Source: Arcobacter aquimarinus
Lineage (GTDB): Bacteria; Campylobacterota; Campylobacteria; Campylobacterales; Arcobacteraceae
Assembly: GCF_013177635.1 (NCBI RefSeq)
Contig: NZ_CP030944.1
Coordinates: 248,001 to 312,000, forward strand
DNA length: 64,000 nucleotides
Direction of reading: 5' to 3'
Made by a program: the position numbers and the translations under genes. The notes under the pieces are model-generated. The model worked only from the letters and a program-made list of their open reading frames with translations, searched no databases and was not told where the DNA came from. Shown here one piece after another: positions 41,949-46,896 of the stretch. Positions within the stretch are counted from its first letter, which is position 1. Each line of letters opens with the position of its first letter.

Positions 41949-42572
41949 ATGAAATTAGCTGTTTTTGATTTCGATTCAACTTTAATGGATGGAGAAACTA
42001 TAGATTTTTTAGCTGAAGAGCTAGGTATTGGTGATGAGGTTAAGAAAATTACAGAAGAAGCAATGAGTGGAAGATTAGATTTTTTTGAATCTTTAACTAC
42101 GAGAGTTGCACTTTTAAAAGGAATGGATTATCAAAAAGTTGTTGATATTTGCTCAAATCTTCCTTTAATGCCAGGAGCTGTAGAGCTTGTTCCACAATTA
42201 CAAAAAATGGGTTATAAAGTAGTTTGTTTTTCAGGTGGATTTAGATTAGGAACAACACCAGCACGTGAAAAGTTAGGATTAGATGCTGATTTTTCAAATG
42301 TTTTACACGAAAAAGATGGAAAATTAACTGGGCTTATTGGTGGAGATATGATGTTTGGATATTCAAAAGGTGATATGCTTCAAAGAATTCAAAGTTTAAT
42401 GGGTATTACAAGAGCTGAAACTTTAGTTTGTGGAGATGGAGCAAATGATTTATCTATGTTTGCACATGCTGATACAAGAGTTGCATTTTGTGCAAGAGAA
42501 GTTTTGAAAAAAGAGGCAAATATAATAATTGATGAAAAAGATTTAACAAAAATTTTAGATTATATTAAATAG
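41949..42572 (+). CDS. serB: Phosphoserine phosphatase
   Basis: 207 residues of the HAD superfamily. The catalytic FDFDSTLMDGE motif is at 5-15, the second motif in CFSGGFR near 96, and the fourth in VCGDGANDLSMF near 161. It carries out the last step of serine synthesis. There is no ACT regulatory domain. A hairpin overlaps its stop codon and separates it from tal. Confidence 0.95.
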   Translation: MKLAVFDFDSTLMDGETIDFLAEELGIGDEVKKITEEAMSGRLDFFESLTTRVALLKGMDYQKVVDICSNLPLMPGAVELVPQLQKMGYKVVCFSGGFRLGTTPAREKLGLDADFSNVLHEKDGKLTGLIGGDMMFGYSKGDMLQRIQSLMGITRAETLVCGDGANDLSMFAHADTRVAFCAREVLKKEANIIIDEKDLTKILDYIK

Positions 42573-42589
42573 GCTTTATTCTTAAAGCC
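42572..42589 (+). terminator. Short hairpin at serB stop codon
   Basis: GGCTTTA / TAAAGCC around TTCT, beginning on the last base of the serB stop codon. Seven perfect pairs; the following T-run is weak, so termination would be partial. Confidence 0.5.
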
Positions 42590-42600
42590 CTTTAGAGTTT

Positions 42601-42719
42601 GCTTCTTTAGATGAAATTTATTTTCATCGCTTTTCATAGCGTAGTCTTGTGACAAACGAAGTGAAGGCAAAAAGAAGTTAAAAATAGATAGGTCCCTTTA
42701 AAATGGGACATTTTAAAGG
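42601..42719 (+). ncRNA. Structured 5' leader of tal, candidate cis-regulatory RNA
   Basis: An outer stem GCTTCTTT (42601-42608) / AAAGAAGT (42671-42678) encloses a hairpin GATGAAA-TTTAT-TTTCATC (42610-42628) and further pairing. A 3' segment can form either GTCCC/GGGAC (42693-42697, 42705-42709) or a perfect 10-bp hairpin CCTTTAAAAT / ATTTTAAAGG (42695-42704, 42710-42719). The second one hides the AAAGGA ribosome binding site of tal. A similar layout occurs before gatC. Confidence 0.45.
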
Positions 42720-42726
42720 AATAAAA

Positions 42727-43719
42727 ATGGGATTAAAAGAAGATATTAACTACTCTTTATGGTGTGATTTTATTGAAAGAGATTTTTTAGAAACAAGATT
42801 TAAAGAGATTATTAAAAAAGGGATAATTCAAGGTGCTACTTCAAATCCTGCAATTTTTGAATCATCAATTACTAACTCTGTTGCATATAAACAACAACTT
42901 GATATGTTACAAGCAAATAATGCAAAAACTATTTATGAAGAATTAGCTTTAACAGATATAAAAAGAGCAGCTTTTTTATTAGATGATTTGCATAAAAAAG
43001 ATGCAGATGATGGGTTTATTTCTATAGAAGTTGATCCATTATTATGTGATGATGCAGCTGGGACTATTGATGAGGGAGTTAGACTTTATTCTTTAATAAA
43101 TGCTGATAATGTAATGATAAAAGTTCCAGCAACTGAAGCTGGATATATAGCAATGAGAGAATTAACTTCAAAAGGAATAAATGTAAATGCAACTTTAATT
43201 TTTTCACCATCTCAAGCTATAAAATGTGCTCAAGCATTAGATGAAGGAATTAAAGATTCAAATAAAGATATTAAAGCAGTTATTTCAGTATTTGTGTCAA
43301 GACTTGATAGATTAACTGATGCTGATTTCGTGTTAAAAGGTTTACAACCATCAAAACTTGGAATTATAAATGCAACTAAATGTTATCATGAAGTTAATAA
43401 GTTTCAAAATCCTAATATAAGAACATTATTTGCAAGTACAGGAGTTAAAGGAAATGAATTGAGTCCTAGTTATTATGTTGATAACTTAATTTATCCAAAT
43501 TCAGTAAACACAGCACCACTTGCTACTATTGAAGATTGGTTAAAAGAGGGTTCTAAAGTAGAAACTCCATTAATGAGTGAAACGGATTGTGATAAATATT
43601 TTGAGCTTTTAAAAAATAAAGGAATCAAAATGGAATCAGTTTATGATAAACTACTTATTGATGGTTTAGAAGCATTTAAAGTTTCATTTAGAGATTTACT
43701 TTCTAAACTAGTAAATTAA
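42727..43719 (+). CDS. tal: Transaldolase
   Basis: 331 residues. It moves dihydroxyacetone units in the non-oxidative pentose phosphate pathway. The Schiff-base Lys is in VMIKVPATEAG near 135 and NATLIFS follows. The start at 42727 is preferred over an in-frame ATG at 42703, because AAAGGA at 42715-42720 lies six bases upstream and the earlier ATG lies inside a hairpin. The structured leader suggests control at translation. Confidence 0.94.
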   Translation: MGLKEDINYSLWCDFIERDFLETRFKEIIKKGIIQGATSNPAIFESSITNSVAYKQQLDMLQANNAKTIYEELALTDIKRAAFLLDDLHKKDADDGFISIEVDPLLCDDAAGTIDEGVRLYSLINADNVMIKVPATEAGYIAMRELTSKGINVNATLIFSPSQAIKCAQALDEGIKDSNKDIKAVISVFVSRLDRLTDADFVLKGLQPSKLGIINATKCYHEVNKFQNPNIRTLFASTGVKGNELSPSYYVDNLIYPNSVNTAPLATIEDWLKEGSKVETPLMSETDCDKYFELLKNKGIKMESVYDKLLIDGLEAFKVSFRDLLSKLVN

Positions 43720-46741: not shown

Positions 46742-46749
46742 AATATAAT

Positions 46750-46832
46750 CCTTTAAAAGGTTACCCTTTAAAAGGGAACCAAAATATTTTACTACTACTT
46801 TTCAACGTTGAAATAAATTCAACTAAAAGTAG
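46750..46832 (-). ncRNA. Structured 5' leader of gatC, candidate cis-regulatory RNA
   Basis: Reading the minus strand, an outer stem CTACTTTT/AAAAGTAG (46832-46825 with 46802-46795) encloses GTTGAA-TTTAT-TTCAAC. This is followed by GGTTCCCTT / AAGGG-T-AACC (46780-46759). The last palindrome, 46760-46750, contains the gatC ribosome binding site. The order matches the tal leader with different bases in the stems. Another hairpin, GAACAA/TTGTTC, lies just upstream at about 46846-46861. Confidence 0.45.
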
Positions 46833-46896
46833 CAAAATCCTAAAGAGAACAAAGAATTGTTCTTTTTTATTTGTTGATATTTTATCCAAAAAGAGT

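Follow-up and report, generated by a model that had tools for sequence, protein, structure and literature searches.

The tal leader of Arcobacter aquimarinus is one copy of a modular, many-copy RNA leader element of Arcobacteraceae

The tal leader and its two exclusive hairpins

Is the structured leader in front of the transaldolase gene of Arcobacter aquimarinus a regulator of that gene, or a local instance of something more widespread? In the window, i.e. the whole 64,000-nucleotide stretch of contig NZ_CP030944.1 that was analysed, tal (NCBIfam PRK03903, 477 bits) occupies 42727–43719 on the plus strand with its ATG at 42727, and is preceded in the same direction by a gene at 41949–42572 (+) that reads as a serB-like phosphatase. 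An earlier note on this DNA had described a tal leader with two mutually exclusive hairpins, one freeing and one hiding the Shine–Dalgarno sequence (SD), and had suggested a riboswitch or other cis-acting regulator of no recognised class. The hairpins are where that note placed them; the leader itself, however, is not specific to tal, being one copy of a previously unnamed, modular, many-copy RNA leader element that starts at 42572.

All parts of the tal copy lie on the plus strand. The P0 hairpin (GGCTTTA-TTCT-TAAAGCC; 42572–42589) has 7 bp and a 4-nt loop, and it overlaps the serB stop codon TAG by one base, the first G of the hairpin. The J0 linker CTTTAGAGTTT (42590–42600) is the most conserved unpaired stretch, an invariance that arises partly by construction because copies were chosen through the J0 motif. 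The P1 hairpin (42601–42677) consists of a basal stem (CTTCTTT, 42602–42608, with AAAGAAG, 42671–42677) and an inner stem (GATGAAA, 42610–42616, with TTTCATC, 42622–42628). This hairpin corresponds to the closed upstream region that had been outlined at 42601–42678, but the start of the element had to be moved to 42572, since P0 and the linker belong to it. Downstream of J1, an AT-rich spacer at 42678–42690 that appears single-stranded from its sequence, two hairpins compete. P2 (42692–42709; GTCCC, 42692–42696, with GGGAC, 42705–42709; energy −9.2) is the anti-anti-SD form and leaves the SD free, whereas P3 (42695–42719; CCTTTAAAATG/CATTTTAAAGG; energy −10.5) buries it, the SD AAAGGA (42715–42720) lying within its 3′ arm. 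P3 had been described as a perfect 10-bp hairpin; it is present and has 11 bp, 42695–42705 pairing with 42709–42719. Because P2 and P3 have bases in common, they are mutually exclusive.

The fold of the leader (42573–42740) reaches −46.9 kcal/mol compared with −29.9 ± 3.6 for shuffled sequences (z −4.7), and when the tal core was shuffled with the SD held fixed, 0 of 5000 shuffles reached the energies of both states. For the full leader of the window, the modelled energies are −41.7 with P2 and a free SD, −43.8 with P3, and −47.9 for a third state, the minimum-energy full-length fold, in which P2 coexists with the linker paired to the SD strand. J0 was considered as a second anti-SD, as this full-length fold predicts, but it was rejected because the pairing does not covary (native −147.6, no better than −143.8 ± 3.1 after permutation).

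A family of copies and their covariation

A BLAST search with the tal leader against 41 genomes returned many intergenic matches within the genus. R1, a covariance model built on the P2/P3 core and containing the SD (AAGGA), finds six strong copies in this genome, ahead of tal, cysK, cysD, a peroxiredoxin gene, gatC and one gene of unknown family. Within the genus, 30 of 31 species have copies. In a sample of 200 genomes of the order, 15 were positive, 13 of them in the same family, while the other two matches were weak. The exact J0–P1 pattern, searched in a collection of 84,980 species, occurs in 20 stretches, all in Arcobacter/Aliarcobacter records, and additionally in six viral contigs. 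Among the genomes and contigs searched, only Arcobacteraceae and a small number of viral contigs thus have the element; a plasmid search with the tal leader gave no match. The second full copy in the window, before gatC, lies on the minus strand at 46742–46863 and was delimited from an R1 match (G000:C1:294749-294781, minus, E 5.5e-4; G000 denotes this genome), the J0–P1 pattern and the sequence itself; close relatives lack the element at the corresponding site. The view that the leader belongs to no recognised class was borne out, as an Rfam scan of the window found nothing, and the only match among 11 loci scanned with an E limit of 1 was to preQ1-II, at chance level (E 0.95; 27 bits, where the gathering score is 47).

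Across copies the order from 5′ to 3′ is P0, J0 (CTTTAGRNTTT), P1, AT-rich J1, P2 or P3, SD and start codon. In total, 130 copies ahead of 52 gene families were parsed, nearly all able to form both P2 and P3; many are of common ancestry, so neither the number of copies nor the covariation counts given below represent independent events. The P1 basal stem is GCTACTTTTA/TAAAAAGTAG or GCTTCTTT/AAAGAAG and the inner stem is variable, and in copies other than that of tal a recurrent asymmetric 1 × 4 internal loop (A / GYTA) separates the two. Within P1, the tal copy of the window and that of one relative (G004) carry an extra 40-nt hairpin (42629–42668, +), which is missing from the tal leaders of four further genomes (G015, G044, G045, G042) and from most copies; a DNA search of 13 genomes with this hairpin matched the tal leaders of G000 and G004 only. 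A hairpin resembling it, in the opposite orientation, is seen in P1 of the mrp and cysK leaders (L033, L247), and small modules therefore seem to move within the element.

Every helix of the element covaries. In P0, 89.6% of alignment cells are paired, all seven pairs show compensatory change, and the covariation score is 0.835 compared with 0.274 ± 0.025 after shuffling; the 48 copies in this alignment (A6) were retained from 61 sequences selected via the J0 motif, after manual removal of some near-duplicates and of two rows in which the motif was misplaced. For P3, whose alignment (A5) took rows on length alone, 86.7% of cells are paired and 6 of 12 pairs are compensatory (38 cells against 14.7 ± 3.0 shuffled), and in the fixed-length alignment of P2 the corresponding figures are two of six pairs and 10 cells against 3.3 ± 1.3. 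Permuting the P1 halves between 30 loci gives −282.2 ± 12.8 kcal/mol compared with −392.2 for the native combinations. Similarly, permutation of the P3 3′ arms with one representative for each of the 52 families gives −307.3 ± 14.3 kcal/mol (best of 300, −351.7), far from the native −507.5. Perfect new pairs are found, for example, ahead of kdsA (CCTTTTATTTAATT/AATTAAATAAAAGG) and in a viral copy (CCTTTGGATGG/CCATTCAAAGG), and at a single locus, tal in G042 and G044, compensating changes largely preserve the P2/P3 pairing. Covariation and permutation together rule out chance hairpins. The two states are also close to energetic balance, with a mean P3–P2 difference of −0.7 ± 3.0 kcal/mol over families, and their energies correlate (r 0.76), in part because of the bases common to both hairpins. 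The earlier note had made its reading as a cis-acting RNA regulator with a two-state platform depend on covariation or conservation among relatives, and the covariation in P0, P1, P2 and P3, together with the fixed position on the SD, upholds it.

Five of the six viral contigs carry a P2/P3-like segment with a gene behind it. In the IMG/VR contigs L311 and L313–L316, the element stands ahead of structural-type genes, and the P2/P3 pairs are intact in most, with new compensated sequences. One viral copy lies between genes that read by eye as tail-sheath-like and tail-tube-like; a family search with 50-residue pieces of the same genes named head-closure and tail-completion families instead.

Gene context, gain and loss

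The element sits in a nearly constant position. Of the 130 copies, 126 have 6–9 nt between AAGG and the start codon, although the proximity of R1 matches to start codons is partly built in, because R1 includes AAGGA. The J0–P1 search is free of the SD, and all 14 of its loci that were examined lie upstream of a gene in the sense direction. The upstream gene runs in the same direction for 108 of 120 copies. The genes behind the element include homoserine dehydrogenase (hom), thrB, thrC, metE, cysK, cysD, hisA, hemE and adk, as well as tal, accD, ung, hypA, ureG, gatC, ubiE, a peroxiredoxin and a response regulator, and no common pathway or metabolite is visible across the approximately 50 gene families. 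Since the downstream genes have no pathway in common, a riboswitch for tal or for sugar phosphates is rejected, and the amino acids that had also been put forward as ligands are likewise not supported.

Other signals in and around the element were considered. Species that have the element at gatC and species that do not both carry a promoter-like box TTTTTNGATAAAAT, located upstream of the whole element or of its insertion point. A promoter inside J1 with a start at GG was judged not convincing, given −10-like matches made by eye at varying distances. An rRNA-type boxA in J0 was set aside as weak, the rRNA leader having GATCTTTAAAAT with only CTTTA in common. As for an intrinsic terminator or attenuator on the sense strand, the terminator scan calls sites here on the minus strand only, and P0 is followed by CTTTAG, not by a U run.

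The presence of the element varies strongly between related species. Of 29 species compared at tal, 7 have it, including one whose P0 is degraded, and in most element-free species the serB stop codon and the tal ATG are approximately 3 nt apart (one site is masked by N). The tal gene of G019 is 98% identical to that of the window, yet it has no element, its stop and start again lying about 3 nt apart. Of 16 gatC sites read, 5 carry the element and 11 lack it, and the SD is similar in the two groups. The two halves also part company. Ahead of an isochorismatase-like gene, L031 and L036 are without P0–P1 while P2/P3 is intact (compare L034); ahead of hypA and hom in some species, P2/P3 follows the upstream stop codon directly or shortly, without P0–P1; and in L243, P0–P1 is kept and P2/P3 is missing. 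As each half is found without the other, the halves need not act together, and comparison of the sequences makes P2/P3 the apparent core and P0–P1 an optional module. The left halves at different loci are up to 92–95% alike, and tandem or partial tandem copies (L190, L198, L199, L195, L033, L244, L247) carry an extra P2-like hairpin upstream of P0. With its patchy, tandem and partial copies, the element resembles an intergenic repeat in part of its behaviour.

A putative translational switch and its rivals

We consider it probable that the element is a lineage-specific, dispersed, bistable translational leader working by an anti-SD versus anti-anti-SD choice, and that it behaves in part like a mobile intergenic repeat. 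In the proposed mechanism, it would be part of an mRNA, either as the 5′ untranslated region or between cistrons. The anti-SD strand CCUUUNNNN would have two alternative partners: with the decoy GGGA(A)C ahead of the SD it would form P2, the ON state in which the SD is free, and with the SD strand it would form P3, the OFF state in which the SD is buried, the pivot being a CC that pairs with the decoy GG or with the GG of the SD. During transcription, P2 would presumably be the first to form, making fresh transcripts translatable, and P3 would follow later or once P2 is disfavoured. The P0–CUUUAG–P1 domain could be a sensor, a landing platform or an insulator that biases the P2/P3 choice, and copies would come and go between related species in the manner of intergenic repeats.

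The most serious rival, possible though not the probable account, is a small mobile or recombining palindromic repeat of the MITE/ERIC/BOX type, whose hairpins mainly serve its own spread and which targets sites just upstream of SDs, any effect on translation being incidental. The patchy orthologous sites at tal and gatC, the 92–95% likeness of left halves at different loci, tandem copies such as L190, L198, L195 and L033, and the copies in viral contigs all point this way. Against it, inverted copies or copies away from gene starts number zero among those examined, no clear target duplication was found, P2/P3 pairing is largely kept via compensating changes within one locus, and P2/P3 outlasts the loss of P0–P1. 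A REP/RAYT explanation was discarded, as no Y1 transposase (PF01797) is found in G000 whereas 5 of 14 controls were positive. The mobile-repeat reading and the translational-leader reading are compatible, and both may hold. The arrangement of hairpin, AU-rich spacer and hairpin, between same-direction genes in 108 of 120 copies, would also suit an operon-splitting processing element, in which P0/P1 protect the upstream 3′ end, an RNase cuts the AT-rich J1 and P2 caps the new downstream 5′ end. We regard this as unlikely, because it leaves unexplained the covariation of the P3 arms that allows SD burial, and P2/P3 also follows a stop codon directly without P0–P1 at hypA.

Quite unlikely, in our view, is a ligand-binding riboswitch class with P0–J0–P1 as aptamer and P2/P3 as expression platform. 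The platform has the classic form, with two states and conserved alternative pairings, and the conserved unpaired J0 and the recurrent 1 × 4 loop amid variable stems could make up a candidate binding site; however, the targets lack a common pathway, and the candidate aptamer shares no bases with the switching strand, is missing from some loci and accommodates variable inserts. An RNA thermometer, in which the AU-rich P3 would melt relative to the GC-rich P2 upon warming, is very unlikely. At 5, 37 and 50 °C the predicted mean P3–P2 differences are −2.34, −0.96 and −0.40, respectively, and of the 52 families the number in which P3 is favoured falls from 40 at 5 °C to 29 at 50 °C, but the modelled shift is small, its sign varies by copy and a common switching temperature is lacking. 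A CsrA site, with the dimer bound to the GGA of the P3 loop and that of the SD, has next to no probability: most copies have both GGA motifs, but CsrA (PF02599) was not found in genome G000 at E up to 0.001 with positive controls, and gatC copies with GGTTACC/GGTAACC retain P2 without the loop GGA.

Several known systems come close to the element. As in the expression platforms of translational riboswitches, one strand pairs with the SD or with a decoy and both states are conserved; unlike them, the element has an optional upstream domain and precedes dozens of gene families, without an aptamer overlapping the switching strand or common metabolic targets. In fourU-type RNA thermometers, a hairpin pairs the SD AAGG to a U-rich anti-SD. 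The element is similar in this respect, but differs in its competing GC-rich hairpin, in lacking a common predicted melting point and in having no Rfam match. With BOX, ERIC and Correia-type repeats it has in common that it is multi-copy, modular, structured, intergenic, patchy between strains and able to influence messages. Among the features of MITE/REP/ERIC-like repeats, many copies at patchy orthologous sites are found and insertion in either orientation is not: all parsed copies are in sense on the start codon, a result to which R1 is biased and the J0–P1 pattern is not. The element further differs from these repeats in its fixed position on the SD, in a 3′ end that is a covarying two-state SD switch and in the transposase partner not being found. 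Potential T-box-like motifs in BOX elements are mentioned in a review of MITEs (PMC10969869). As far as the accessible part of Stav et al. (2019; PMC6429828) goes, Arcobacter sp. L was examined and genus-confined structured intergenic motifs were reported and left unnamed; being structured, intergenic and from the same bacterial group, these may possibly represent prior notice of the element. No other description was found in a literature search that lay outside most subscription papers. The anti-SD/anti-anti-SD logic is known in kind; what would be new is a two-state translational leader dispersed like a repeat.

If this reading is true, one bacterial family spread a ready-made translation switch over approximately 50 gene families and into viral contigs, instead of evolving one per gene, and the element would be a rare case in which the structure of a repeat is preserved by compensating mutations because it gates translation. 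A more speculative extension, which we hold to be rather doubtful, is a transferable cassette whose insertion immediately ahead of ribosome binding sites would subject unrelated genes to common bistable translational control answering a cell-wide signal; unrelated genes, viral structural ones included, would then be under one control. The question is open to direct test, given six strong copies in this genome and closely related species that differ naturally in whether they have the element.

In the tal copy, an in-frame ATG at 42703–42705 lies in the P2 loop and would lengthen tal by eight residues; its own SD is not evident, and it is probably not used as the start. A small TCTCAAAGAGAGTTCTAAAGAACAAG-like insert is seen between J0 and P1 in leaders L034, L039, L043, L104 and L111, whereas in the metE leader L240 it lies within the P1 apex.
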